Notes under the pieces: generated by a model
Seen by the model: the letters and a program-made list of their open reading frames with translations, nothing else
What the model was told of the DNA's origin: nothing
The model's database searches: none
Part shown: piece by piece, positions 1,178 to 15,350 of the stretch
How the letters are laid out: each line of letters begins with the position of its first letter
Numbering within the stretch: position 1 is the stretch's first letter
Assembly: GCA_031258055.1 (NCBI GenBank)
Contig: JAIRNM010000095.1
Span: 1-15,350, forward strand
DNA length: 15,350 nucleotides
Direction of reading: 5' to 3'
Source: Bifidobacteriaceae bacterium
GTDB lineage: Bacteria; Actinomycetota; Actinomycetes; Actinomycetales; WQXJ01
Made by a program: the position numbers and the translations under genes

Positions 1178-2308
1178 ATGAATCAGACCCCTTCCGCCCG
1201 CATCCGGGTGGCGTTGGTGTTCGGCGGGCGCTCCGGCGAGCACTCGATTAGCTGCTTGACAGCCGGGTCGATCCTCCAAGCGATTGACCGCAGCCGATTC
1301 GAGCCAGTCTTGGTTGGCATAACGCCAAAAGGCCGCTGGACTCTGGTGCCGGATGACCCAGCGGCGTTGAGACCGGACCAGGGCCGATTGCCGGTAGTGC
1401 CGACTGGTGGACCGGAAGTGTTCCCGCCGACCGAAGCCGGTTCGACCGAGTGGCGTGTCTTGCCGGACGGCGGCACACTCTCTCCGCTCGGTTCTATTGA
1501 TGTGGTGTTCCCGCTGCTGCACGGGCCGTTCGGCGAAGACGGCACCGTTCAAGGACTGCTCGAACTGACGGATCAGCCTTATGTTGGGGCGGGAGTCCTG
1601 GCTAGCGCCGTGGGCATGGACAAGGGCTATATGAAATGCGTCCTGGCGGCGCACGGCCTACCGGTCCTCCCGTATACAGTCATCACTCCGGCTGATTGGG
1701 CAGCCAATCCCGCCGCGGCGATAGACCGGGCGCTCGAATTGGGCTTACCGCTGTTCGTCAAGCCTTGCCGGGCTGGCTCCTCGCTCGGCATCTCCAAGGT
1801 TGTGCGGGCAGAGGGCCTGCCGGAGGCGATCGAAGCGGCCGCCCATCACGACCCGCGAGTGCTAGTCGAACAGGCCGCCACGGGACGCGAAATCGAATGC
1901 GCGGTGTTAGGGGCGAGCAAACCCGACCAGCCTCCCAGAAGCTCCCTCCCATCCGAGATTGTGGTTCAAGGCGGCCACGACTTCTACGACTTCGACGCCA
2001 AGTACCTGGATGAGGCTGGAGCCGATCTGCGCTGTCCAGCCGACCTGCCGCCAGCGGTGACCGCCCGGGTCCAAGACATGGCGGCCCGGGCTTTCGCGGC
2101 GATTGGCGCTGAGGGCCTGTCCCGGGTCGACTTCTTCTACGACCCGTCGGCGGCCGAGCCGCTGGTCATCAACGAGATCAACACAATGCCGGGCTTCACC
2201 CCGATCTCGCAGTATCCGCGCATGTGGCTGGCTTCCGGCCTGAGCTACCGCGACTTGATCAGCGAACTGATCGAGCTTGCCCTGGCCCGCCCGACCGGCC
2301 TGCGTTGA
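1178..2308 (+). CDS. ddl: D-alanine--D-alanine ligase
   Basis: This 376-residue ATP-grasp enzyme joins two D-alanines for the peptidoglycan pentapeptide. Visible family motifs are FGGRSGEHS (residues 15-23), the HGPFGEDG loop (115-122), the ATP-grasp lysine region around LFVKPCRAGSS, the omega-loop sequence FYDFDAKY (269-276) and the metal-binding NEINTMPGFT (332-341). The FYD-x-x-x-KY omega loop is typical of D-Ala-D-Ala ligases rather than the D-Ala-D-Lac ligases of VanA type. I chose ATG 1178, preceded by GGAGG at 1171-1175, although the spacing is short (2 bases); a GTG at 1151 in the same frame is the alternative and would add nine residues. thiL starts 7 bases after its stop, so they are probably translated together. 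Confidence 0.95.
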   Translation: MNQTPSARIRVALVFGGRSGEHSISCLTAGSILQAIDRSRFEPVLVGITPKGRWTLVPDDPAALRPDQGRLPVVPTGGPEVFPPTEAGSTEWRVLPDGGTLSPLGSIDVVFPLLHGPFGEDGTVQGLLELTDQPYVGAGVLASAVGMDKGYMKCVLAAHGLPVLPYTVITPADWAANPAAAIDRALELGLPLFVKPCRAGSSLGISKVVRAEGLPEAIEAAAHHDPRVLVEQAATGREIECAVLGASKPDQPPRSSLPSEIVVQGGHDFYDFDAKYLDEAGADLRCPADLPPAVTARVQDMAARAFAAIGAEGLSRVDFFYDPSAAEPLVINEINTMPGFTPISQYPRMWLASGLSYRDLISELIELALARPTGLR

Positions 2309-2315
2309 TCTTGCC

Positions 2316-3491
2316 GTGGACGAGGATTCCCTGATCGCGGCCTTGACGGCAGGCTTGCCGCAGGGGCCCGCGGCGCTGCTCGGCCCGGGTGACGATTCGG
2401 CTGTGGTCGCTTTCCCGGACGGCCGCGCCACCATCACGACCGACATTTTGGTCGATGCCGTCCATTTCCGCTCCGAGTGGTCCAGCGGTTTCGACGTCGG
2501 CTGGCGTTTAGCGGCCCAGAACTTGGCTGACGCTGCCGCTATGGGTGCTGTCCCGACGGCGCTAGTCGTCGCCTTGGCTGGCCCACCGGACCAGTTGGCG
2601 GGGGAGTGGGGAAGTCGGTTCAGCGCTGGCTTGGCGACCTATTGCGGTCGTTGGGACGTCGGCGTGGTTGGCGGCGATTTGTCTACGGCCCGGATCCTGG
2701 TTGCCTGTGGTACAGCTTTCGGTGACTTAGAGGGGCGTCAACCGGTGACCCGCTCCGGCGCCCGGCCTGGTGATGTTCTGGCTGTATCCGGTGCCGTGGC
2801 CTCGCCCCCAACGGGCGACCAGGGGCCGTGTCGGCGGGCGCAGCCAGGCGCCGGCCCCGATGCGTCACAGCCGCTGCGAGGTCCAAGAAGAGGCTCCAGG
2901 TTCACTTGGCCTTTAGGCGGTTCAGCCGCTGGTTTAGCGGTGCTCCAAGCCGGAGGCGATGAGCGGTCCACCGACCCGGCCGCGGAGTCAATGGCCAGTT
3001 CGATCACCGACTCCGTGGACGGGTCGCTCGCAGCCTCCGTGGCTGGCTCGATGGCTAGCTCAACCGTTGGTTTAGCTGTCGGCTCTGCCCTCGCTGCTTA
3101 CCGGCGGCCTGATCCGCCCCTTGACCAGGGCAAGGCCGCAGCGCTGGCAGGGGCTACAGCGATGCTTGATATTTCCGATGGGCTGGGCAAGGACGCTGCC
3201 AGGTTGGCTAAGGCGAGCCAGGTTCGGTTGATCATAGAACCATCTAGCCCAGTGTTGGCGGAGGCGATTGAGTATTGGCGGCCTTTAGCGCGGATGCTTG
3301 AGCACGACCCAGCGGATTGGGTGCTGGGCGGCGGTGAAGATCATGCCCTCCTGGCCACCTTCCCGGCTGAGGCGATGCTGCCAGATGGATGGCGCGGCAT
3401 CGGCCATGTTCTGGCGGCGGGGGAGGGCGGCCCGGGCGTGACGATCCAAGGAGCCGCTTCGACCGCCCAAGGCTGGGATCACTTCGCCTAA
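2316..3491 (+). CDS. thiL: Thiamine-monophosphate kinase with two large insertions
   Basis: ThiL phosphorylates thiamine monophosphate to the diphosphate cofactor. The PurM-like fold is recognisable from GPGDDSAVV near the N-terminus, TTDILVDAVHF, NLADAAAMGA, GGDLSTA, LDISDGLGKDAARLA and the late GGGEDHALLATFP motif. The 391 residues exceed the usual 310-330. The excess sits in two places: residues 163-199 (Pro/Gly/Arg rich) between AVSGAVA and LGGSAAGL, which are normally nearly adjacent, and residues 215-258 (Ser/Ala-rich repeats) before LAAYRRPDPPL. Both keep frame, and every catalytic motif flanking them is intact, so the enzyme is probably active. The GTG start at 2316 is 7 bases after the ddl stop and has no clear ribosome binding site, which suggests coupling to ddl; TTG 2277 is an alternative start inside ddl. 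Confidence 0.88.
   Translation: MDEDSLIAALTAGLPQGPAALLGPGDDSAVVAFPDGRATITTDILVDAVHFRSEWSSGFDVGWRLAAQNLADAAAMGAVPTALVVALAGPPDQLAGEWGSRFSAGLATYCGRWDVGVVGGDLSTARILVACGTAFGDLEGRQPVTRSGARPGDVLAVSGAVASPPTGDQGPCRRAQPGAGPDASQPLRGPRRGSRFTWPLGGSAAGLAVLQAGGDERSTDPAAESMASSITDSVDGSLAASVAGSMASSTVGLAVGSALAAYRRPDPPLDQGKAAALAGATAMLDISDGLGKDAARLAKASQVRLIIEPSSPVLAEAIEYWRPLARMLEHDPADWVLGGGEDHALLATFPAEAMLPDGWRGIGHVLAAGEGGPGVTIQGAASTAQGWDHFA
2958..3089 (+). repeat. Degenerate Ser/Ala repeat inside thiL
   Basis: This 132-base in-frame stretch of thiL encodes a low-complexity segment with imperfect repeats of the form (G/E)S-(M/L)-A-(S/A)-S: ESMASS, GSLAAS, GSMASS, then GSALAA. Spacing is roughly 8-13 residues. Codons differ between copies, so the repeats are either old or not produced by recent slippage. 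Confidence 0.55.
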
Positions 3492-4979: not shown

Positions 4980-5011
4980 CTGGCCAAAGGCCTGCTTCCG
5001 GCTGTGGCCAG
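4980..5011. terminator. Possible hairpin between convergent genes
   Basis: The inverted repeat CTGGCCA (4980-4986) / TGGCCAG (5005-5011) has an 18-base loop that can itself form a short GCC/GGC stem. It lies in the 185-base gap between the convergent DUF4143 and LacI genes. There is no T tract on either strand, so it is at best a weak or factor-dependent terminator. Otherwise I see nothing in that gap. Confidence 0.3.
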
Positions 5012-5054: not shown

Positions 5055-6032
5055 TCATAGAGCCCTGGTAGGTGACGATGCCGTTTCGCGCAAGACCACC
5101 AGCCTGGGAGGCAAGTCCAGGCCTGTCAGGCGTTCCAGAACCATGCGCGCCGCGATTACGCCTAGGCCCCGGGGATTGAGCGGCACATTGGTCACCTTGG
5201 GCAGCAGCGTCGTAACGAACGGTAGATCGCCAATGACAGAGACGCAGAAATCGTTTTCAATGCCACGCTCCGTGATAGCTTTGAGCACGCCGACCCCAGA
5301 AAGGTTGTTGGCCGCGACCACCGCGTCGGGCGGGGCCGCGAGGTCCAGGAGCTGGGCGATGACCTGGTGAGCGCCTTCGACTCGGAAGGATTGGTGCGTC
5401 AAGTAATCCGGGGGAGCGTCAAGACCGGCGTCGGCAATCGCGGCGCGCCATCCGGTCGCTCGGTCGCGCGCTGTCGAGGCGCTGACGGGACCCGTCACAC
5501 AAGCGATACGGCGGCACCCACGCTCAATCAAGGCTTGCGTGGCGCGGAAGCCGAGGTCAACGTTGTCGAAGGTTACTTGGTCCACGTTCTGTTTGACTGT
5601 GCGGTCAATCATCACTACTGGCCGACCTTTGGCAATCAAGCGATCAATGCTGGGTTCCGAATTGGTGGGGGCTATTATCAACCCCGCCATGTTCTCCAGC
5701 TCTGCCACCTGGATATACCGCGACTCCTTGTCTGGAAGATCGTCTGAGTTACAGATCACGACTGAGTAACCAGCTTGTTCGGCGATGTCCTCGACGCCGC
5801 GGGCCACCGCCGTGAAAAACGGATTCTCAATGTCCGGCAAGATGAGGGCGAGCACAGCCGAATGCCGTCTGCGCAGGGAGCGGGCCGTGCGATCAGGCGA
5901 ATACCCAAGTTCCTGGACCACACGGTGTACAGCTTCTGCGAGGTCCTGCCTGACGGGTTTTCCATTGAGTACCCGTGAAACGGTTGCTGCAGAAACGCCG
6001 GCTTCCCGGGCGACGTCGATCATTCGGGCCAT
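5055..6032 (-). CDS. LacI-family transcriptional regulator of the sugar locus
   Basis: This 325-residue protein has an N-terminal LacI helix-turn-helix (IDVAREAGVSAATVSRVLNG, about residues 5-24), the hinge region ending GYSPDRTARSLRRR, and a periplasmic-binding-protein-like effector domain starting SAVLALILPDIENPFF. The start ATG at 6030-6032 has AAGGA five bases upstream. It is divergent from the isomerase gene with about 160 bases between. Four matching 16-bp near-palindromes with a central CG, the form LacI-family proteins bind, stand before the other genes of this locus, so it is most likely a local repressor released by a sugar. The ligand cannot be read from sequence. Confidence 0.93.
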   Translation of the reverse strand: MARMIDVAREAGVSAATVSRVLNGKPVRQDLAEAVHRVVQELGYSPDRTARSLRRRHSAVLALILPDIENPFFTAVARGVEDIAEQAGYSVVICNSDDLPDKESRYIQVAELENMAGLIIAPTNSEPSIDRLIAKGRPVVMIDRTVKQNVDQVTFDNVDLGFRATQALIERGCRRIACVTGPVSASTARDRATGWRAAIADAGLDAPPDYLTHQSFRVEGAHQVIAQLLDLAAPPDAVVAANNLSGVGVLKAITERGIENDFCVSVIGDLPFVTTLLPKVTNVPLNPRGLGVIAARMVLERLTGLDLPPRLVVLRETASSPTRAL

Positions 6033-6057
6033 GAGTTCCTTCGGAATAGCGGCGCGG

Positions 6058-6083
6058 ACTGGTTAATCACTTAGTGAACCAGT
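6058..6083. promoter_or_regulatory. Inverted repeat in front of the LacI gene
   Basis: Arms ACTGGTT (6058-6064) and AACCAGT (6077-6083) enclose 12 bases containing CACTTAGTG. It lies 25 bases before the regulator's start and overlaps its possible minus-strand promoter (TTGATA at 6092-6097, 18-base spacer, TAAGTG at 6068-6073). It could be an autoregulatory operator or an mRNA hairpin. It lacks the central CG of the other four sites. Confidence 0.4.
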
Positions 6084-6140
6084 CTGGCATCTATCAATGG
6101 CGGTCTCAAGACGTCAGGACCTCTGATTCGATACCGGCCC

Positions 6141-6170
6141 TTGACTTTGAGAAATCGGTTTCTGTAGCAT
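6141..6170 (+). promoter_or_regulatory. Promoter of the isomerase gene
   Basis: TTGACT (6141-6146) and TAGCAT (6165-6170) are separated by 18 bases, and the operator fills the spacer. The predicted transcript start is about 15-20 bases before the ATG. Confidence 0.55.
6149..6164. promoter_or_regulatory. LacI-type operator, site 1 (isomerase)
   Basis: GAGAAATCGGTTTCTG is a near-palindrome centred on CG, with AGAAA/TTTCT arms. It sits between -35 and -10 of the isomerase promoter, where a bound repressor would block RNA polymerase. It shares the GAAATCG core with sites 2 and 3. Confidence 0.65.
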
Positions 6171-6194
6171 CTTAGAGAATTGAGCGGAGGCATG

Positions 6195-7832
6195 ATGGCG
6201 AATGAATACCGGTGGCCGCGGGCGCCCAAGCGCCCTGCGTTGGAACCCAAGACCGCATACTTGATCGCTAGCGGTGACCAGCGGGAAAGCGCGAACTCAG
6301 CCGGGTGGTCAACCCAGGCGGCAATGGAGGCGGCGCTGGCCACTGCCTTCTCCGCCAACGGATGGCGCCTCACCCGTGCCAATCCAGTCGACCCGACTAC
6401 TGGGCATGGATTCATTTCTTCGCAGCGCATGGGCCTTGAAGTGTTCAAGTCAATTCCTGTGGACGCCCCGTTAGTCGTGGCCGAAGCGGTCTGGCAGTAC
6501 TCGCACCACGTATTGGGTGGCCTGGTCACCCACCGCGGACCTGTCTTGACAGTCGGAAACTTTGCGCCCGAATGGCCCGGATTGGTCGGTTTGCTTGGAC
6601 TGAACGCCGGGTTGACTAAGGCTGGACGCGCCTATTCGAGCCTGTGGTCGATCGATTGCACTGACGATTGGTTCTTGGCCGGGCTGCGCGAGTGGATTGA
6701 GACCGGGCGGGTTGAACTCGATCAAAGCCACGTTCGGAATCTGCCTCGGCTTGATGCGTCTGACGAGGTCCGTCTCGGGAGGGCGCTGGCGGAACAACTC
6801 TTGGCTGATAAGGCACTTATCGGAGTCTTTGATGAGGGCTGCATGGGCATGTTCAATGCGATTATTGACGATGGCCTCCTCAACGGAATTGGCATCTTCA
6901 AGGAGCGCCTGTCGCAGTCGGCTTTGTACGCTGAGACGCTCCGCGTCGCCGATGGCGAGGCGAAGCAGGTGGGGGCGTGGCTGGTGGAGCGCGGCATGCG
7001 GTTCCATCTAGGAACGGACGGCGACACTGAATTGACTGCCGATCAGCTAATTTGGCAGTACAAGTTGTATATCGCGGCGCTTCGAATCGCGGATGACTTT
7101 GGCCTTGACGCGTTCGGGATTCAGTACCAGCAAGGGCTCAAAGACCTGCTTCCCGCGTCCGACCTGCCCGAAGGTCTGTTCAACTCGACGGATCGCCCCC
7201 CGGCAATGAGTCGGGACGGTAGTCGCGAGCTTTATGCTGGCATGGCTGTTCCCCACTTCAACGAGGCCGACGAGGGCGCTGCAATCGACGCACTGGTCAC
7301 CAATAGGGTGTGGAGAGCGATGGGACTACTCCCAGACACGACATTGCATGACGTGCGATGGGGAGAGGAATACGATGGCCAATATGTCTGGACCTATGAG
7401 ATATCGGGCGCAGTTCCCGCGTCCCACCTTGGAGGATACAGTAACGCGGAAGGCTGGCGCCAGGCGTCGGTGTTCTTCCCCGCGGGCGGCTCCACCCTCA
7501 ACGGCGTGTCTAAGGCAGGAGACGTGGTCCTGAGCCGGGTCTTCTTGGCCGATGACTGCATCAACGCTGATCTGTTCCTGGGGAAAGTGGTCGAATTGCC
7601 TACTGACGAGAGCCTGCGGCGCAAGCAAATCACGAATCCCGAGTGGCCGATAGCTCATGTGGTGCTAGAGGGAGTGACCCGAGATCAATTCATGGCCAGG
7701 CACAAGGCGAACCACGTACAACTGGTGTACGCGCCTGACGAATCAACCGCTCTGGCGGCCCTTACAACAAAGGCTGCGATGTTAGATGGCCTGGGAATCA
7801 ATGTTAGCCTTGTCGGAAAGGTCGGGATGTGA
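6195..7832 (+). CDS. L-fucose/D-arabinose-type sugar isomerase family protein
   Basis: This 545-residue protein resembles the L-fucose/L-arabinose isomerase superfamily, metal-dependent enzymes that convert an aldose to a ketose. Recognisable parts are the HHVLGGLVTHRGPVLTVGNF region (residues about 104-123), FDEGCMGMFNA with the putative catalytic glutamate E214, LDAFGIQYQQGLKDL with D305, and the C-terminal RHKANHVQLVYA with H507; these three match the Glu, Asp and His that bind the metal in FucI/AraA. FucI enzymes typically also accept D-arabinose. The substrate here is not proven; the next-door GH172 gene makes D-arabinose attractive. GGAGG at 6186-6190 favours ATG 6195 (4-base spacing) over ATG 6192; TTG 6180 is unlikely. 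No signal peptide, so it is cytoplasmic. Confidence 0.82.
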   Translation: MANEYRWPRAPKRPALEPKTAYLIASGDQRESANSAGWSTQAAMEAALATAFSANGWRLTRANPVDPTTGHGFISSQRMGLEVFKSIPVDAPLVVAEAVWQYSHHVLGGLVTHRGPVLTVGNFAPEWPGLVGLLGLNAGLTKAGRAYSSLWSIDCTDDWFLAGLREWIETGRVELDQSHVRNLPRLDASDEVRLGRALAEQLLADKALIGVFDEGCMGMFNAIIDDGLLNGIGIFKERLSQSALYAETLRVADGEAKQVGAWLVERGMRFHLGTDGDTELTADQLIWQYKLYIAALRIADDFGLDAFGIQYQQGLKDLLPASDLPEGLFNSTDRPPAMSRDGSRELYAGMAVPHFNEADEGAAIDALVTNRVWRAMGLLPDTTLHDVRWGEEYDGQYVWTYEISGAVPASHLGGYSNAEGWRQASVFFPAGGSTLNGVSKAGDVVLSRVFLADDCINADLFLGKVVELPTDESLRRKQITNPEWPIAHVVLEGVTRDQFMARHKANHVQLVYAPDESTALAALTTKAAMLDGLGINVSLVGKVGM

Positions 7833-7876
7833 TTCCTTCTATTATCACGGACTTTCACGCGATCAGGATCGGCGTT

Positions 7877-7892
7877 CAGAAATCGTTTACTG
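7877..7892. promoter_or_regulatory. LacI-type operator, site 2 (GH172 gene)
   Basis: CAGAAATCGTTTACTG matches site 1 in 13 of 16 positions and is a near-palindrome (CAG-AA-CG-TT-CTG). It lies in the 114-base gap between isomerase and GH172, 54 bases before the ATG. I could not find a convincing -35/-10 pair beside it, so the gene may have a separate weak promoter or be read from the isomerase promoter. Confidence 0.6.
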
Positions 7893-7946
7893 ACTCTGCG
7901 CACGGGTTTTCGGCGCACTGCGGCGCAACGTGAGGAGCCAACGGAT

Positions 7947-9071
7947 ATGAAGCCTGAATTTGGCAGTCCTGGCTCGATCAGTTCCCTGCGATCCGTGTGC
8001 ACCAGATCGATCAGCCCAGAAAACCCAGACGGTTCGGCTGGCGGCGGCGGCAGGGCTACGACCGGCACCGGGGCGGTTCATGCGCGTGATCTTGGCGCGG
8101 GCTGGAAGATCTCCCCTAGCGTCGACATCAAAGCCGGTGAAACCGAGGAACTGGCAGCCATTGAGGGAGCGGGGCGCATTACCCACATTTGGGCTACCAC
8201 CCACGCGGATCATTGGCGCTCGTTGGTTTTGAGGGCCTATTGGGACGGATCGCTCGAACCCGCAGTGGAGGTGCCCTACGGCGACTTCTTTTGCAATGGC
8301 TGGGGGGTATTTGCGCAGGTGAATTCGCAGATGGTGGCCGCCAACCCGCACGGCGGATTCAATTCCTACTGGCCCATGCCATTCCGATCAGGCGCGCGCT
8401 TGACGCTTGAGAACAAATCGACCGCCGAGGTGCGGCTCTATTTCCAAATCACCTATGAGTCGGGTGAGCCACAGGCAAGCGACGCCTATTTCCATGCCCA
8501 GTGGAGGCGATCAAACCCCCTTGAAGAGCTAACACCCCACACGATCCTCTCGGATGTGAGTGGACGGGGCCATTATGTGGGCACATATCTCGCCTGGGGC
8601 GCGAACTCGAATGGATGGTGGGGGGAGGGCGAAATGAAGTTTTACCTCGACGCCGACACCGCCTACCCGACTATCTGTGGCACCGGTACCGAGGACTACT
8701 TCGGAGGTGCGTGGAATTTCGATGTGCCCGGGCGGGGCTACACCGCCTTTTCGACCCCTTACCTTGGGTTGCCCCAAATCATCCGACCGGACGGCCTCTA
8801 CGCATCGCAGCAGCGCTTCGGAATGTACCGCTGGCATGTGCCTGACCCGATCCACTTTGGCACCGGTCTGCCCCGAGTGGACATACAGGCCCTTGGCTGG
8901 CGCAGTGGCTGGCGCTACCTGCCATTGCGGGACGACATCGCTTCGACCGCGCTGTTCTATCTGGACCGCCCAACTACCGTCCGGCCTCCGGCGCCTACGG
9001 CGGACACAATGGAGGTGCACGTGGGATCCGCTCCCGTGCCGGACCTTGGGATGAGCCCTCCGCGCAGCTAG
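7947..9071 (+). CDS. Glycoside hydrolase family 172 (DUF2961) protein
   Basis: This 374-residue protein carries the full DUF2961 pattern: the N-terminal NPDGSAGGGGRA and ARDLGAGWKISPSV blocks, IEGAGRITHIW, the WWGEGEMKFYLD segment with acidic residues E227/E229, and GTGTEDYFGGAWNF with E249. In characterised members two glutamates, one in the TEDYF motif and one about 20 residues before it, are catalytic. Known activities are alpha-D-fructofuranosidase/difructose dianhydride I synthase and exo-alpha-D-arabinofuranosidase. GAGGAG at 7932-7937 with 9-base spacing supports the ATG. There is no signal peptide, so it should act in the cytoplasm on imported oligosaccharides. Its own operator (site 2) places it in the local regulon. 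Family assignment is firm; substrate is inferred. Confidence 0.9.
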   Translation: MKPEFGSPGSISSLRSVCTRSISPENPDGSAGGGGRATTGTGAVHARDLGAGWKISPSVDIKAGETEELAAIEGAGRITHIWATTHADHWRSLVLRAYWDGSLEPAVEVPYGDFFCNGWGVFAQVNSQMVAANPHGGFNSYWPMPFRSGARLTLENKSTAEVRLYFQITYESGEPQASDAYFHAQWRRSNPLEELTPHTILSDVSGRGHYVGTYLAWGANSNGWWGEGEMKFYLDADTAYPTICGTGTEDYFGGAWNFDVPGRGYTAFSTPYLGLPQIIRPDGLYASQQRFGMYRWHVPDPIHFGTGLPRVDIQALGWRSGWRYLPLRDDIASTALFYLDRPTTVRPPAPTADTMEVHVGSAPVPDLGMSPPRS

Positions 9072-9115
9072 CGATTCGGGGCGCCTTCGCATTCGACAAG
9101 GCTTTTGAGTCCGCC

Positions 9116-9982
9116 TTAGCGCCCAGCGAGACCGGCTTGGGCCACCCCGGTGACGAATGCCCGCTGTGCGAACAGGTACACAATAACTGGAGGCAGGATA
9201 ACCATCACCGAAGCTGCCATCAGGACGGGGAAATTCGTGCTGTACGAGCCCTGCAGATGGAGCAGGCCTAAGGTCACAGTGCTGATGTCTTCATTGTGGA
9301 TCATCACCAACGGCCACAGGAAGTCGTTCCAGACGGTGATCATCGACAACACTGTCAAGACCGCGAGAGCTGGGCGGGCCAAGGGAAGCATTATTCTCCA
9401 ATAAACCTGCCACTGGTTCGCGCCGTCTACCCGGGCCGCCTCTTCCAACTCTTGGGGTATGGATAGGAAGAACTGCCGCATTAGGTAGGTTCCAAAGGCA
9501 TTTCCAAACAAACCAGGAATGATCATGGCAGCTATGGTGTCAACCCAGCCGAGTGAGCGCATGAGCATGAATTGCGGGATTATGACCACTGTCGCCGGAA
9601 CCATCAATGTCGCGAGGTAGGCGAGGAATACCTTGTCGCGGCCGTAAAACTTCTTCCGGGCAAACGCGTAGCCTGCCAATGCGCAGAAAAACACCTGACC
9701 CGTGGTCACGGCGGCAGCGTAGAGGAGCGTGTTGAACAATTGGCGGCCAAGGGGTATGAATTCGAACACCTTAGCGTAGTTGTCCAAATTGAAACTCGAG
9801 GGAATCAGCTGCGGGGGTGTGACGAATACTTCGCCAGGGCTTTTGAACGAGCCTGAAATGGCCCAGATGATGGGACCGATTGCCATAGTCGCGAGCACCG
9901 TTAGCGCCAGGTACCCGAGGGCCAGCGTCAGCGGTTTCCTTCTTCTGTGCTTGTGCGCGCGGGGAGCAGCCGATCCGGTCAT
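9116..9982 (-). CDS. Carbohydrate ABC transporter permease (MalG/LacG type)
   Basis: This 288-residue inner-membrane protein has about six hydrophobic helices after a basic N-terminus (HKHRRRK). The EAA loop that docks the ATPase is at residues 181-204 (EAARVDGANQWQVYWRIMLP). Order and sequence fit the second permease of a CUT1 sugar importer. Its ATG overlaps the stop of the preceding permease (ATGA at 9979-9982), and GGAGG lies 7 bases upstream, so the two are translationally coupled. It converges on the GH172 gene with 44 bases between and no obvious hairpin terminator. Confidence 0.95.
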   Translation of the reverse strand: MTGSAAPRAHKHRRRKPLTLALGYLALTVLATMAIGPIIWAISGSFKSPGEVFVTPPQLIPSSFNLDNYAKVFEFIPLGRQLFNTLLYAAAVTTGQVFFCALAGYAFARKKFYGRDKVFLAYLATLMVPATVVIIPQFMLMRSLGWVDTIAAMIIPGLFGNAFGTYLMRQFFLSIPQELEEAARVDGANQWQVYWRIMLPLARPALAVLTVLSMITVWNDFLWPLVMIHNEDISTVTLGLLHLQGSYSTNFPVLMAASVMVILPPVIVYLFAQRAFVTGVAQAGLAGR

Positions 9983-10905
9983 AGGTCATCCTCCGCGGAT
10001 CGCGACAGCCTTAACTGGATGTAGGTCAGCCCTAACAAGATTAGGAAGACCACCCACTGGATCGCCGCTGCGTAACCCATCTCGTAGAAGCGAAAAGCAT
10101 GCTGGAATACCATGATGCCTAACACATAGGTCGACGTCCCCGGGCCGCCGCTGCCGTTTGTCATCACGTATGCCAAGTCAAAGACTTGGAACGACTGAAT
10201 TATCGAGATTACCAATACAAAAGCGATAGTCGGTCTTATCATGGGCAGAGTGATCGCGAAGAATTTCCGCACGACGCCCGCACCATCGAGCGACGCCGCG
10301 TCGTAGAGGCGATCCGGCACGTTTTGTACGGCCGCCAGCAGAATGACTGTCGACAGCGGCACCCCCTTCCAGACGCTGACGATGATGAGAGAGATGAGAG
10401 CCCAGTGCGGGTCGGTCAACCACCCGATTTGTTCCACTCCCGCAAGGCTAAGAAGCCAATTCAGCAAACCGTTATCGGTGTTGAACAACCACATCCAAAT
10501 CACCGCCATCGCCACAGTTGACGCCACCAATGGGAGGAAAACCACCGCCCTGAAAAAGCCGATGCCGAATAGTTTCTGGTTCAAAGCGAGGGCGGACAGG
10601 AGGGACAAAACGATAATTGGAACGACGCTGCCGATGGTGAATAGAGCTGTGTTCCACAGAGCCGTCCAGAACAACGGATCGGCGAACAGGTCGACGTAAT
10701 TCGCCAGTCCTGCCCAAGTGGGGGGAGTCAGCAGCTCCCAATTCGTCAGGCTTAGGTAGAGCGAAAAGATGAGCGGGAAAGCTAGGAAGACAGCGACTGC
10801 CACCAGGTTGGGCAGCACAAACAGATACCCACTCGCGTGGGGCCAGAATCGGGCGTAGCGGGGTGTGGCGTTTGTCGATTTCCTGATGACGTTCTTGCGC
10901 GGCAC
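9979..10905 (-). CDS. Carbohydrate ABC transporter permease (MalF/LacF type)
   Basis: This 308-residue membrane protein begins with a basic segment and a first helix starting YLFVLPNLVAVAVFLAFP. It has the EAA-type loop at about residues 201-226 (YDAASLDGAGVVRKFFAITL), and the conserved FDLAYVMTNGGP-like segment appears as FDLAYVMTNGSGGPG. I chose GTG at 10903-10905, 34 bases after the stop of the binding-protein gene; longer readings overlap that gene and add non-family sequence. No clear ribosome binding site precedes the GTG, so the exact start is uncertain by some residues. It forms the channel together with the MalG-type partner. Confidence 0.92.
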   Translation of the reverse strand: MPRKNVIRKSTNATPRYARFWPHASGYLFVLPNLVAVAVFLAFPLIFSLYLSLTNWELLTPPTWAGLANYVDLFADPLFWTALWNTALFTIGSVVPIIVLSLLSALALNQKLFGIGFFRAVVFLPLVASTVAMAVIWMWLFNTDNGLLNWLLSLAGVEQIGWLTDPHWALISLIIVSVWKGVPLSTVILLAAVQNVPDRLYDAASLDGAGVVRKFFAITLPMIRPTIAFVLVISIIQSFQVFDLAYVMTNGSGGPGTSTYVLGIMVFQHAFRFYEMGYAAAIQWVVFLILLGLTYIQLRLSRSAEDDL

Positions 10906-10939
10906 GGTAGTGGACTGGGCTGTTCGACTGTCTCTCGCT

Positions 10940-12403
10940 CTATCCTTCGGTCTCCAAAAGTTCGTCGATCTGTGGATTGATGCGAGCCGCAAAGTCCGCA
11001 GCGGTCTCCCGCCCCTGCCAGACTTCGCTGGCGTTGGCAACGATGAGAGGTTCAATCTTTCCCCACGCGGGCGAGATCGGCAGGTATGCGGCATTGTCCA
11101 GGGCACCGCTGAACACAGATGTGTTTTCTATTTGCTCATGGGCCGAGACGAATGCCTCAGACTCAATCACGGACTTGAGAATCGGAACGAACAGGCCAGA
11201 CTTGGCGATTATCTCCTGGCCTTCGGGGCCGCAGGAAAACTTCACGAACTCCCAGGCGGCGTCAGGGTTCTTGCTGGCTGCCGCGATCGCTAGGCCGGTG
11301 GCGCCGATGTCTGACTTGCCCGCTTTGCCGTTGGGTCCCACAGGAAGCGCCGCCACATCGAAATCGAGGTCCTCGGCCTCCGCGAAGGTACCGTACATCC
11401 AGTGACCGGATAGGCACATGGCCGCTTGGCCAGCGACAAACAGGTCGGCGGCGGGTGCGACGCCCTCATCTTGCGGCTTAGGGGCTACCTTGTACTTGTT
11501 CGCAAGGTCGGCATAGAACTGCCAACCGGCGATGAAGGACGGGTCATCCATGTTGCTCTCGGTCGGAGAGATAGGCGGCGAGAACCAATCCACGCCGTTA
11601 CCCATCGCCAACACGCTGGCGCTTAGGTACGGGACCCAAGCATCGACGAAGCCGTATTGGGTGATCTTGCCATCCGAGGTCTTGGTTAGTTGTTGGGCAG
11701 CCTCGATAAAGGCGTCCCAGTTCCAGTTGACGTCAGTCCAATCGGCGGACGGCGGAGTTATGCCAGCCTCCTCGAACAGTCTCCGGTTGTAGTAGAGGAA
11801 GATTCCGGCGAACTGTTCCGGCAACGCCCACTGCTGATCCCCGCCGCTGAACGTACCCATCAACACCGGCGAGCCGTCCGTGTTGAGCTGCTCCGACAAG
11901 GCGGCGTCGGCAGCGATGCGTGAGGAGAGATCGAGCATCCCTCCACGCGACGCGATGCCCAGGTAACTCAACTCCCAGGCCATCATGACATCCGGTGGAG
12001 TGCCTCCGGCAATGGCTGTTAGCAACTCCTGAAGAGGATCAGCGCCAGCAATCTGAGTGGTCACCTTGATGTCAGGATACTTGTCTTCGAACGCCGCGAC
12101 GACGGCTTCGCGACTGTTCGTTTCGCCTGTGGAAGATGCCCCAAAATAGAAGGTGATGTCACCGCCAATTTCACCGCCTTCTCCACCTGACCCAGCCATG
12201 CCGCCGTTCGACTGTGAACCATCGGCGCATCCGCCGAGGAGGGTCGACGCGCCAATCCCCGCGCTTGCGGCCGCCATGCCCGCCAAGAAGCTGCGTCGGC
12301 TCATCCCTGGAAGGCGGGAAGACGCCTCAAAGAAACTGTCCCCGGGATGCAGAAATCTCCGAGACCATTGACGATATCCGGGTCCTGCCTGATTGCCATT
12401 CAT
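10940..12403 (-). CDS. Extracellular sugar-binding lipoprotein of the ABC transporter
   Basis: This 487-residue solute-binding protein is of the CUT1 (MalE-like, cluster B) kind. It has a twin-arginine export signal, SRRSFLAG (residues 35-42), a hydrophobic stretch and a lipobox LGGC with the lipidated cysteine at C59, then a Gly/Ser linker before the mature domain (DITFYFGASSTGETN). Typical features follow: EAVVAAFEDKYPDIKV, PPDVMMAW, the FVAGQAAMCLSGHW segment and the C-terminal helix EVWQGRETAADFAARINPQIDELL. The ATG at 12403 has AAAGGAG five bases upstream and is preferred, although ATG 12304, just before the twin arginine, would give a more ordinary signal length. It is the first gene of the operon and delivers the oligosaccharide to the two permeases. 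Sugar specificity is not readable. Confidence 0.92.
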   Translation of the reverse strand: MNGNQAGPGYRQWSRRFLHPGDSFFEASSRLPGMSRRSFLAGMAAASAGIGASTLLGGCADGSQSNGGMAGSGGEGGEIGGDITFYFGASSTGETNSREAVVAAFEDKYPDIKVTTQIAGADPLQELLTAIAGGTPPDVMMAWELSYLGIASRGGMLDLSSRIAADAALSEQLNTDGSPVLMGTFSGGDQQWALPEQFAGIFLYYNRRLFEEAGITPPSADWTDVNWNWDAFIEAAQQLTKTSDGKITQYGFVDAWVPYLSASVLAMGNGVDWFSPPISPTESNMDDPSFIAGWQFYADLANKYKVAPKPQDEGVAPAADLFVAGQAAMCLSGHWMYGTFAEAEDLDFDVAALPVGPNGKAGKSDIGATGLAIAAASKNPDAAWEFVKFSCGPEGQEIIAKSGLFVPILKSVIESEAFVSAHEQIENTSVFSGALDNAAYLPISPAWGKIEPLIVANASEVWQGRETAADFAARINPQIDELLETEG

Positions 12404-12419
12404 GCCGTCTCCTTTGGCG

Positions 12420-12435
12420 GTGAAATCGATTACAA
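12420..12435. promoter_or_regulatory. LacI-type operator, site 3 (transporter operon)
   Basis: GTGAAATCGATTACAA; the inner 14 bases TGAAATCGATTACA are palindromic at 12 of 14 positions, with ATCGAT at the centre. It lies 3 bases downstream of the -10 of the transporter promoter, covering the expected transcript start. A second GAAATCG half-site, on the minus strand, lies inside the promoter spacer (12450-12456). Confidence 0.65.
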
Positions 12436-12438
12436 GCC

Positions 12439-12467
12439 ACATTAGGCGGCGATTTCCTATGTGTCAA
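12439..12467 (-). promoter_or_regulatory. Promoter of the transporter operon
   Basis: On the minus strand, a perfect TTGACA (12462-12467) is followed after 17 bases by TAATGT (12439-12444), a TAnnnT type -10. The predicted transcript starts inside operator site 3, giving a leader of about 30 bases before the binding-protein ATG. Confidence 0.65.
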
Positions 12468-12921
12468 GGCAGCAGCCGGGCAACGCTTCGAGAGTAAGTC
12501 GGAGCGGCCACAAGTGACGCCTTCCCCACCCGTGCCATTTCCCCGCGTGTGTCTATTCGGATGGCGTCGTTGCCGGTCAATAGATGAGTAGACCCCGATC
12601 AGCGCGAAGCCATCAGCGCGCCGACGGCCGGTCCGAGTGGGTTACAAAGTGGGCGAGCCGATGGCGGCGAGTCGGCATGCCTGGAGGGCCAACCGCAGGG
12701 ATGTCGGCGACGAGTGGCGGCGCCAAGTCGATTTGCGAGCCTGGAGTTGACGTGAAGGCTGAGTTGCCCCGTCGCTGGCTGGGCGCCAACCCGAGTTCGT
12801 AAGGCGGTGGCGTTGCCTGAATGGCGAATCGCCGTATCCCACGCGCTAAGAACGCCGCCATGCCGAGGGCCCTGGCGATGAAGTGGCGGCCGTTTGCGAT
12901 CGCGGGAACCAATTGGTTCGA
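12468..12921. other. Gene-poor stretch between two divergent promoters
   Basis: This 454-base interval lies between the transporter promoter and the promoter of the large protein. Several overlapping short open frames exist on both strands (for example 12584-12802 plus and 12599-12928 minus), but none has a ribosome binding site, a recognisable motif or credible composition. Minor features are TCTATT/AATAGA arms at 12552-12557 and 12579-12584 and a small GGCGA/TCGCC palindrome near 12823. It may be a decayed gene or a DNA-looping spacer; I see no supported gene. Confidence 0.4.
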
Positions 12922-12951
12922 TTGACACCGGCGGGGCGGTCCGACTAGGCT
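12922..12951 (+). promoter_or_regulatory. Promoter of the large multidomain gene
   Basis: TTGACA (12922-12927), an 18-base spacer, then TAGGCT (12946-12951) of TAnnnT form. Operator site 4 begins directly after it, the same layout as at the transporter promoter. The leader to the ATG at 13079 would be about 120 bases. Confidence 0.55.
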
Positions 12952-12952
12952 C

Positions 12953-12968
12953 TAGTAATCGATTACTA
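12953..12968. promoter_or_regulatory. LacI-type operator, site 4 (large multidomain gene)
   Basis: TAGTAATCGATTACTA is a perfect 16-bp palindrome and the best copy of the locus motif. It lies directly downstream of a -10 element, over the expected transcript start. Confidence 0.75.
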
Positions 12969-13078
12969 AGTTCACAACGGTGTGATGATCGGCAAATCTA
13001 GCCCGCCGACGGAGGCCTTTCAGCGGTGTGCTGTCGGCTCGACCCAGGCTGGACACGCGAGGATAGGAACAGCAACTC

Positions 13079-15350
13079 ATGATTTTCGATGATTTCGACT
13101 CCCCCGACCTCGGTATTGGCTGGACGGCATCCAACTTTTCGTCGGGTGGACCCGCCTACGATCTGGCTGTGATCCCCGGCAGCTTGCGAATCAATGTACC
13201 TGGTGGACAGCCATACGATCAGTGGGTTGGCTTAGACAATTCGCCAGAAATCACGCGATCCGACATGAACTCGGGAAGCTTTGCCATTGAGACGCGGCTC
13301 GCACTGGACTCATTTGTGGAGGGCTCCGCCTTCACGGCTGGTCTGGCCGTTCGGTTTGGACCAGGAGACTTGCTTCTTTGGGGGCCGACCGTCGGTGCGT
13401 TTCGACTGGAGGCTGTGCGATCAGGTACGCCGAACCTAGCTGTGTTCCTCGGTTGGCCGTCTGCGGAGGTTTTTCTACGCATTGAGAAATCGGGCACTGT
13501 CTTTTCTTTTTTCCATAAGGCGGCAGCCGAGGATCGGTGGGTCGCGGATGGTCAGTATCGCCCGAACGGTAACGCCACCGTCCAATCGGTTGGCTTCGGA
13601 ATCAAGACCTGGGGCGATGACGGAGCTGCCGTGACGGCGAGTTTCGATTACTTCAGGTGCGTAATCGGTACCAACGCGCCGGACATTGGAATGGAAACGG
13701 GCGACATCAACACCTTCTACAACGCCTGCACGAGGTGGGTGCCCGAGCACGGGCCTTTGATTTCCATTCCCCCGAATATCCCAGGGCAAGATGTGTCGCA
13801 GAAGAACACCCGAATCGTTATTCCTGACTGGATTGCCTATGATAGGACTGATTTGGTCGATAGGGCACCACAGCTATACCGGATCGACGTCGACGGCACC
13901 GAGTGGTCACTCGAAACGGTTGTGACCATGATCTACAGTGAGCCGTCCATTGCCAATGCTGGCCTCTTCGTCCAGTTTTCCGCTGAAGACGCCCTGACCT
14001 TCGGACTGCAAGGGGGGACCAGCTTGCGCCTGTATAGAACTGGTCTCGGAACCCTCCTAACTATAGGAGGGTTCAACAACTGTGTCTGGCTCCGCATCAC
14101 GCGATCGGAGGGCACTTATACCTTTGAATACAAGACCAGCGGCGCGGGTTCCTGGACCACTGCCACGACCCTGGCAGAGTCGGCCAGCCCGGAGAAGGCG
14201 GGCGTCATCGCCATGACGGGCGCCCCTGCGCACGCCGCATTTGATTTTGGATACTTGAGATTGGCGAAGCCCGATCCGACGCAAGCCCCGATGACGCCGC
14301 CCCTGTCCTTGCCACCGGCGCCGCCGGCAGTGGAATTGCCCACATCTGACCAGGACGCTACTACACCGGTTGATGGAGTCATGACCCTCGAAAACGCGGA
14401 ACTGGCTCTTCGAGTTGACGCTACGACAGGTGATATCTTGCAGATATGTAACAAGGTGGCGGGAATCGACCTATTGGATCCAGACTCGTCCCGCCGACCC
14501 GCGTGGAAGATTGAGACGGCGCCCGGGTCGGCAGAGACAGCGTGGTTGACGCCCGCCAGGGCTGATGCCGCCTTTACAGGTACCCAGTATCCTGACCTCT
14601 TGGACATGGCGTGGGTCTGCCCGAACGGCCTAACTGTGCACGCTGTTGCTTCCTTCGACTCGGATTCGGATGACCTCGTCTTCTCGGTAGAAGTCACCAA
14701 CACGGGGACCGTACAGGTGGCAACTGTTGAATACCCGAGCATTGACCAGGTGACAGCACTTGGTGGTGCAGGAACCGACAACTATCTGCTGCACCCGTAC
14801 GCGACGGGATATCTATTCAAAAACCCTCTCCAGCTTTTCCCTCAGGGTGGGCAAGCCCCTCCACTGCCAGCGCAGAGCGGCGGCATCCCGCCGTGTCCGT
14901 ACCCGGAAGGGTATAGCGGGGCCTCCACTCAGATCATGGCGTACTACGCGCAAGGTGTCGGTGGTTTCGCCTTCTGGGCGGACGACTCAACTGGGTGGGC
15001 CAAATGGCTTGACTGCTTCAGAGGCGATGACTTGCTCACAATCCGTTTCCTGCACTCAGCGACGGGAATCGGCGCTGGTAACGGCCTGGCCCTTCCCTAT
15101 ACGGTGCGGGTCACCGCGTTGCGAGAAGGCGTCTGGCATGAAGCGGCTGAACGGTACAGAGCTTGGGCCAAGAGTCAGCCGTTCTGCGCTCTCGGGCCTC
15201 TCCATTCTCGCGTAGATAGGCCAATTTGGCTGCTTGAGGAGGTTGGTCTAGCGACATTCGGGATAAATACCCAGTACGACAGGCAACCTTGGCTTCAGTA
15301 CTTCCACGACCTTATCGGCGCGCCGGTCTTCCATGTCACCGGGCCGAACT
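13079..15350 (+). CDS. Large cytoplasmic multidomain carbohydrate-active protein (DUF6259-like), 3' end outside window
   Basis: From ATG 13079 the frame stays open for 757 codons to the window edge. Residues 1 to about 195 start FDDFDSPDLGIGWTAS and look like a concanavalin-like beta-sandwich; a second such domain (DUF1349-like) spans roughly 245-395, ending AAFDFGYLRLA. A Pro-rich linker (about 395-425) follows, then from residue 435 a segment starting MTLENAELALRVD that resembles the beta-sandwich of DUF6259 proteins. The frame is cut at about residue 757 (GAPVFHVTGPN), where a hydrolase-like barrel would begin. The start is supported by an AGGAA about 9 bases upstream and by the promoter and operator before it. 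There is no signal peptide, so it probably acts on imported sugar. A glycoside hydrolase role is inferred from fold and context; DUF6259 assignment is from memory of the family. Confidence 0.72.
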   Translation, partial: MIFDDFDSPDLGIGWTASNFSSGGPAYDLAVIPGSLRINVPGGQPYDQWVGLDNSPEITRSDMNSGSFAIETRLALDSFVEGSAFTAGLAVRFGPGDLLLWGPTVGAFRLEAVRSGTPNLAVFLGWPSAEVFLRIEKSGTVFSFFHKAAAEDRWVADGQYRPNGNATVQSVGFGIKTWGDDGAAVTASFDYFRCVIGTNAPDIGMETGDINTFYNACTRWVPEHGPLISIPPNIPGQDVSQKNTRIVIPDWIAYDRTDLVDRAPQLYRIDVDGTEWSLETVVTMIYSEPSIANAGLFVQFSAEDALTFGLQGGTSLRLYRTGLGTLLTIGGFNNCVWLRITRSEGTYTFEYKTSGAGSWTTATTLAESASPEKAGVIAMTGAPAHAAFDFGYLRLAKPDPTQAPMTPPLSLPPAPPAVELPTSDQDATTPVDGVMTLENAELALRVDATTGDILQICNKVAGIDLLDPDSSRRPAWKIETAPGSAETAWLTPARADAAFTGTQYPDLLDMAWVCPNGLTVHAVASFDSDSDDLVFSVEVTNTGTVQVATVEYPSIDQVTALGGAGTDNYLLHPYATGYLFKNPLQLFPQGGQAPPLPAQSGGIPPCPYPEGYSGASTQIMAYYAQGVGGFAFWADDSTGWAKWLDCFRGDDLLTIRFLHSATGIGAGNGLALPYTVRVTALREGVWHEAAERYRAWAKSQPFCALGPLHSRVDRPIWLLEEVGLATFGINTQYDRQPWLQYFHDLIGAPVFHVTGPN

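Follow-up and report, generated by a model that had tools for sequence, protein, structure and literature searches.

The stretch of DNA analyzed here, which we call the window, is an entire contig of 15350 bp (C287; JAIRNM010000095.1) from a Bifidobacteriaceae genome (G000; GCA_031258055.1) that comprises 2.39 Mb in 439 contigs and is 77% complete. From position 5055 on it carries, in order, genes for a LacI-family regulator (minus strand), a FucI-type sugar isomerase and a GH172 glycoside hydrolase (both plus), two CUT1 permeases and their solute-binding protein (SBP; all minus), and a DUF6259-type protein (plus) that runs off the right edge. We think it quite likely that these genes are the core of a LacI-controlled regulon for the use of short D-arabinofuranose chains, which most likely would be pieces of the cell-wall arabinan of Mycobacteriales. 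D-arabinan is a characteristic component of the mycobacterial cell envelope, and the three papers that we draw on assigned enzymes that cut it to families only in 2021–2023 (PMC8605356, PMC10509167, PMC10115798). Our literature search found nothing on D-arabinan enzymes newer than these three papers and nothing on relatives from termite guts. The novelty of the window lies in the DUF6259 protein, which the first-pass annotation, made from the sequence alone, had named without singling out.

In the pathway that we propose, the lipoprotein SBP and the two CUT1 permeases would bring in the oligosaccharide, and a cytoplasmic GH172 would trim terminal alpha-D-arabinofuranose. The isomerase would then convert the released D-arabinose into D-ribulose. 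The DUF6259 protein, also cytoplasmic, probably cuts a bond that GH172 cannot, for example at beta-D-arabinofuranosyl ends or at a cap, and the LacI protein would bind GWAATCGNTTWC sites ahead of the transcription units.

Import and breakdown of a D-arabinofuranose oligosaccharide had been put forward in the first-pass annotation and is now well supported by the closeness of GH172 to a crystallized enzyme, a kept active-site asparagine, a shared operator, and an isomerase relative inside 56 of 80 GH172 loci from other genomes. These 80 loci, which cover 1.52 Mb, were the best preserved among the 594 relatives listed; many are from Microbacterium and thus lack independence, and contig ends truncate some of them. 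Genes were counted in them at E 1e-10 for LacI, the isomerase, GH183, DUF6259 and a protein from contig C64 described below, and at E 1e-20 for the kinase and GH116. Protein relatives were listed as the best 120 of 8000 for the isomerase and the best 120 of 7999 for GH172. We also searched 18 family genomes and a set of 396 sampled from the order, with gene calls in relatives made by a simple script based on open reading frames (ORFs) and GC content by codon position. Among the genomes named below, G009 and G010 belong to the same genus as the window's genome, and G003, G006 and G015 are further relatives.

GH172 and its specificity

The GH172 protein carries the DUF2961 domain (PF11175; 291 bits against a cut-off of 27). 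Aligned without gaps to the crystallized enzyme ExoMA1 (8IC8), it is identical at 292 of 365 residues (80%) and scores 719 bits, against 124 bits (E 7e-35) for the alignment to alphaFFase1 (7V1V). The catalytic glutamate pair of alphaFFase1, E270 as acid/base and E291 as nucleophile (PMC8605356), is kept in the window protein, and the motifs WWGEG and GTGTEDYF are aligned. Gly299 of alphaFFase1 admits fructose (PMC8605356). The window protein has an Asn in its place, following the conserved Trp in GGAWNFD; the equivalent residue of ExoMA1, Asn253, excludes fructosides, and ExoMA1 is specific for alpha-D-arabinofuranosides with weak alpha-D-fructofuranosidase activity (PMC10509167). We saw no signal peptide by eye.

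We scored the specificity position across the 80 loci by motif matches in the three forward frames, which gave Asn 76 times, Cys three times and Ala once; L058, L064 and L073 gave no motif match. Asn is also present in GH172 of G009, G015 and G003. In a quick tree of 77 rows, from which 8 of the 80 loci were dropped for a match with a stop or shorter than 300 aa, the window protein falls into a 56-row group with ExoMA1 (support 97). A nearer fork has a support of 82, the window protein sits on a long end branch, and the tree came with a warning of long branches meeting. GH172 of G009 and G015 group with that of G003 and are split from the group of the window and ExoMA1 at a support of 100. From homology and active-site residues, we consider the prediction that the window protein is an exo-alpha-D-arabinofuranosidase of the ExoMA1 clade to be well supported.

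The first-pass annotation had kept a fructan or difructose anhydride substrate as its main alternative. The locus would then serve alpha-D-fructofuranosides or difructose anhydride, with GH172 working as alphaFFase1 does in Bifidobacterium dentium, and an unrelated sugar would be the substrate of the isomerase. Given that alphaFFase1 is itself a GH172 recognizably related to the window protein, and that ExoMA1 retains some activity of this kind, the idea has a basis, but the 80% identity to ExoMA1 and the Asn in place of the fructose-admitting Gly disfavor it. Moreover, GH172 loci in which GH183 or GH116 is also present share the operator and the isomerase with the window. A fructan route requires no aldose isomerase, and we regard this alternative as very improbable.

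A shared operator

The pattern GWAATCGNTTWCW gives seven strand-matches at five places in the window, where dinucleotide shuffles lead us to expect 0.01. Four of the places precede the isomerase, GH172, SBP and DUF6259 genes (Table 1). The fifth exact match (5247-5259) falls within the lacI coding region. There is also a separate imperfect palindrome, ACTGGTT...AACCAGT at 6058-6083, about 25 bp before lacI, which is possibly lacI's own control site. Our initial guess at the operator pattern was dropped because it matched one unrelated place only.

Since the pattern was derived from the window sites themselves, the independent test comes from other loci and genomes. A 12-base core of the operator occurs at 152 distinct sites spread over 60 of the 80 loci, where the reversed control motif has no site. 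Of the 42 loci with the FGGY kinase, 33 have the operator close to the start of that gene, and in 22 of 63 it lies within 350 bp of lacI. In whole-genome scans of five family members, strand-matches numbered 2 to 11 per genome, compared with 0 to 1 for the control. In G009 the same operator stands ahead of both the DUF6259 operon and an isomerase gene that is not linked to it. The shared operator described in the first-pass annotation was thus borne out, with four units in the window carrying it and copies recurring in GH172 loci elsewhere. It offers a simple handle for finding the remaining genes of the pathway in fragmentary genomes.

The window LacI, which would be the repressor that reads these sites, is 66% identical to a LacI adjoining the isomerase gene in G010. 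A LacI match is found in 63 of the 80 loci (distant paralogues included), with about 50% identity in the Microbacterium loci.

Isomerase and kinase

The isomerase matches the C-terminal domain family PF02952 (35.7 bits against a cut-off of 29.3, E 8e-9). Its counterpart in G009 (75% identity) is on another contig than GH172, yet is preceded by the operator GAAATCGATTTC, and this co-regulation supports D-arabinose as the substrate that would be converted to D-ribulose. The other 24 of the 80 loci have no isomerase match in the stretch covered, and some of these are cut by contig ends.

An FGGY kinase is present in 42 of the 80 loci. The four FGGY kinases of the window's genome comprise a glycerol kinase, a xylulokinase that scores at the cut-off and two weaker xylulokinase-like proteins. 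Three of them are 26–30% identical to the kinase of the loci and the fourth has no match to it, and none was a convincing D-ribulose kinase. The genome's own pentulose kinases might supply the kinase step.

The DUF6259 protein

Because the contig end truncates the gene, the window contains only about the first 50 positions of the DUF6259 domain (PF19773), which score 19.7 bits against a cut-off of 28.7. The scores of two full-length relatives are 67.7 and 65.7 bits. We searched 5.8 billion proteins with words from the first 500 residues, so that relatives of the catalytic part alone are missed, and scored 8,000 candidates. Three relatives were found besides the window fragment: P0242 (61% identity, 1183 aa), P0243 (49%, 1209 aa) and P0244, which spans about half of the fragment and in which only the concanavalin-like domain matches. 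The layout of the protein is N-terminal concanavalin-like repeats, a beta-sandwich-like region and then the start of the DUF6259 domain. Pfam matches to concanavalin-like domains are weak or below cut-off in the window protein, P0242 and P0243 and clearer in P0244; we also saw the repeats by eye. No signal peptide was seen by eye in P0242, P0243 or the window protein.

When nine DUF6259 sequences are aligned, all nine share an Asp and eight share a Glu (D864 and E917 in the numbering of P0242). Because C874, H879 and others are as well kept, these two residues are a putative catalytic pair. The window copy stops before the equivalents of both. The window piece had no match among solved structures, and a four-row profile of the domain stayed at chance level (best E 0.16, to an alpha-mannosidase). 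Our literature search found no paper on DUF6259.

Its gene is linked to that of GH172 wherever we found it in the family. Matches to P0242 at E 1e-10 occur in 3 of the 18 family genomes (the window's genome, G009 and G015) and in the same three among the 396 genomes from the order, and in all three the gene is clustered with GH172 and a CUT1 transporter. The row in G009 is DUF6259, SBP, permease, permease, GH172; a LacI gene precedes it, and a perfect operator lies 52 bp upstream. In G015 it is GH183, GH183, SBP, permease, permease, GH172, DUF6259, and the DUF6259 gene begins within 10 bases of the GH172 stop. Of these two GH183 proteins, the shorter one has a match at E 9e-75 to EndoMA1, an endo-D-arabinanase of solved structure. 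We think that the link is more than inheritance because it is kept while the GH172 group, the transporter and the regulator all differ (identities are given below). An unrelated protein that stays with GH172 through such changes is a concrete candidate for a missing activity.

What this activity would be is suggested by the cytoplasmic location beside GH172, which points to a glycosidase, exo-acting or debranching, for the linkages that GH172 leaves intact. As a candidate new D-arabinan glycosidase, the protein may act as a beta-D-arabinofuranosidase, which in the published locus is the part played by GH116, an exo-beta-D-arabinofuranosidase that cuts beta-D-arabinofuranosyl ends (PMC10509167). 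More broadly, and tentatively, with confidence somewhat short of even, we suggest that the roughly 1180-residue DUF6259 proteins with concanavalin-like repeats at the N-terminus make up a new intracellular glycoside hydrolase family acting on D-arabinan oligosaccharides, for example as an exo-beta-D-arabinofuranosidase unrelated to GH116 or as a remover of arabinan caps, with Asp864 and Glu917 as catalytic pair. The idea of a strict stand-in for GH116 was weakened by G015, which also has a GH116 on another contig (45% identity to Microbacterium GH116). In G009 a frame of 1104 aa matches DUF608 more weakly.

It is also possible that DUF6259 is a neighbor by chance or inherited linkage and acts on some other glycan, with GH172 and the isomerase being the real pathway. 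The link to GH172 rests on three genomes only, and DUF6259 genes of other kinds in the five genomes opened of six outside the family (G083, G103, G160, G173 and G218; G093 was left out) have surroundings of 16–20 kb with no GH172, isomerase or operator. For this reason we rejected the protein as a general partner of GH172. On the other side, the three genomes span two GH172 clades, the gene all but adjoins GH172 in G015 and shares a gene row with it in G009, the operator precedes it in both the window and G009, and the G015 row includes GH183. On balance we think a chance neighbor unlikely, and continue to favor a role for the protein in D-arabinan breakdown.

The first-pass annotation had asked for conserved co-occurrence of the gene set in related genomes. 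This was found for the isomerase and GH172 across the loci; the pairing with DUF6259 occurs in the three genomes above and in 0 of the 80 related GH172 loci. The set is also kept together only in part within the family, as the DUF6259-GH172 clusters of G009 and G015 lack the isomerase; in G015 no isomerase was found.

Two side observations concern these clusters. In G009 (L090:14650-20863, to L091) a second CUT1 set and two GH51-like genes adjoin the DUF6259-GH172 cluster; the first GH51-like gene matches the alpha-L-arabinofuranosidase C-terminal domain and the second was assigned by eye. In G103 (L160:9182-13493) two tandem DUF6259 genes lie in another ABC-transporter cluster without GH172.

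Points against the proposed regulon

A number of observations weigh against the D-arabinan regulon that we propose. GH172 of the same-genus genome G010 has Gly at the Asn position together with an internal stop. An exact operator is found within 350 bp upstream of only 24 of the 80 GH172 genes and 3 of the 56 isomerase genes, and the scan of G003 gave two operator matches against one for the control. The four exact operators of G015 are on contigs C35, C40, C51 and C58, away from its DUF6259 cluster, which has just an operator with one mismatch, roughly 170 bp ahead of its first GH183 gene. The window permeases and SBP are just 25–32% identical to their counterparts in G009 and G015, and the window LacI is 36–37% identical to theirs; the permeases, SBP and LacI of G009 and G015 are 47–69% identical to each other.

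The isomerase and kinase steps are also affected. FucI has N-terminal and central domains that belong to further Pfam families, and the window isomerase shows no Pfam family besides PF02952 at E 0.001 and no NCBIfam model. The best solved match of its profile is the D-arabinose isomerase 3A9R, at a non-significant E of 0.1; the weak likeness is to the C-terminal region, and the remainder is not recognizably similar by sequence. A relative with 59% identity in G006 adjoins a rhamnulokinase-like gene with no operator nearby, and the G006 genome has no GH172 match, so the isomerase family may serve other uses too. No ortholog of the loci's kinase was found among the four FGGY kinases of the 77%-complete genome.

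Finally, in our searches of this 77%-complete genome we found no GH183 at E 0.001 and no match to PF04685 (GH116). Among the 80 loci, GH183 is present in 42 and GH116 in 50, a count that takes in relatives with only 33–39% identity. G010 has a GH116 (68% identity) with an operator on the same contig; as this is about 1.2 kb off with an oppositely oriented gene between, we do not claim direct control.

Contig C64 of the window's genome bears on this question. Its divergent DUF4185-like gene stands behind two operators and is followed by a second CUT1 transporter. Relatives of the DUF4185-like protein are found in 19 of the 80 GH172 loci with up to 52% identity, and C64 is probably a second part of the same regulon. 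The family assignment of the protein is weak: it scores 27.8 bits against a cut-off of 39.5 (E 1.8e-6), its direct comparison with the G015 GH183 falls short of significance (E 0.025), and no solved structure matches it. These are further points on the negative side. Just before the gene there is a decayed GH172 remnant (C64:3588-3782, in L126) with stops in all three forward frames.

The absence of a typical GH183 and of GH116 from the searches would fit a system that scavenges free D-arabinose or short D-arabinose glycans of other source, which needs no endo-enzymes. D-arabinofuranose is found on Pseudomonas pili and in some lipopolysaccharides (PMC10115798), and such decorations could be the source. 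The genome is incomplete, however, the DUF4185-like gene with its two operators belongs to a family that recurs in GH172 loci, and the related G015 cluster holds two GH183 genes. We judge scavenging of this kind to be quite unlikely, and pieces of mycobacterial-type arabinan remain our preferred substrate for the regulon.

Gene content of the window

All of the genes named in the first-pass annotation were found with Pfam matches, the one for DUF6259 being below cut-off. The ABC sugar importer with its SBP is recognized by PF01547/PF13416 and two PF00528 matches. The N-terminus of the SBP has twin-arginine and lipobox-like features, and its probable start is just downstream of the operator, both judged by eye. 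The 5' portion of the MalF-like permease ORF overlaps the SBP gene.

Table 1. Genes and operators of the proposed regulon in the window.
Feature	Position	Strand	Basis or sequence
LacI-family regulator, likely regulon repressor	5055-6032	-	PF00356 (HTH) and PF00532 (periplasmic-binding-like)
Operator before isomerase gene	6151-6163		GAAATCGGTTTCT
FucI-type sugar isomerase	ORF 6180-7832, probable start 6192/6195	+	PF02952 C-terminal domain
Operator before GH172	7879-7891		GAAATCGTTTACT
GH172, predicted exo-alpha-D-arabinofuranosidase	7947-9071	+	PF11175, homology to 8IC8
CUT1 ABC permease, MalG-like	9116-9982	-	PF00528
CUT1 ABC permease, MalF-like	9979-11106, true start probably near 10870-10940	-	PF00528
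CUT1 solute-binding lipoprotein (SBP)	10940-12442, true start probably ~12403	-	PF01547, PF13416
Operator before probable SBP start	12421-12434		GAAATCGATTACA, matches on both strands
Operator before DUF6259 gene, perfect 16-bp palindrome	12953-12968		TAGTAATCGATTACTA
DUF6259-type protein, first 757 aa, candidate glycosidase	13079-15349, cut by contig end	+	sub-cut-off domain matches

The genes left of position 5,000 encode a nucleoside hydrolase, a D-Ala-D-Ala ligase, a thiamine-phosphate kinase and a DUF4143 ATPase. In the thiamine-phosphate kinase gene (2277-3488), an in-frame stretch rich in Ser, Ala and Asp lies between its two matched parts. No tRNA genes or RNA families were detected in the window.

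Comparison with known systems

The closest published system is the D-arabinan locus of Microbacterium arabinogalactanolyticum, which has four DUF4185 (GH183) genes, GH172, GH116, an ABC transporter, an isomerase and a kinase; D-arabinose and an extract of mycobacterial cell walls induce its GH183, GH116 and SBP genes, with a milder effect on GH172 (PMC10509167). The window resembles it in having a GH172 of the same larger clade, an ABC importer and an isomerase, and shares LacI, isomerase and operator with Microbacterium GH172 loci. It differs in that the window lacks the GH116, typical GH183 and kinase of that locus, none of which turned up in the rest of its incomplete genome, and adds the DUF6259 protein.

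PUL42 of Dysgonomonas gadei acts on D-arabinan and likewise has GH172 with a predicted fucose isomerase (PMC10115798). It is a Bacteroidota locus with three GH172, and a CUT1-LacI arrangement is not mentioned in the portion of that paper available to us. The difructose dianhydride I synthase/hydrolase alphaFFase1 (PMC8605356) is like the window enzyme a GH172 with the same two catalytic Glu, but is distant in sequence and differs at Gly299.

The first-pass annotation had called the window a possible undescribed locus. D-arabinan loci with GH172 and an isomerase were published in 2023 (PMC10509167, PMC10115798), and together with the isomerase-bearing GH172 loci of our survey they place the core of the window within a type of locus that was already described, so that "undescribed" holds only for its DUF6259 partner.

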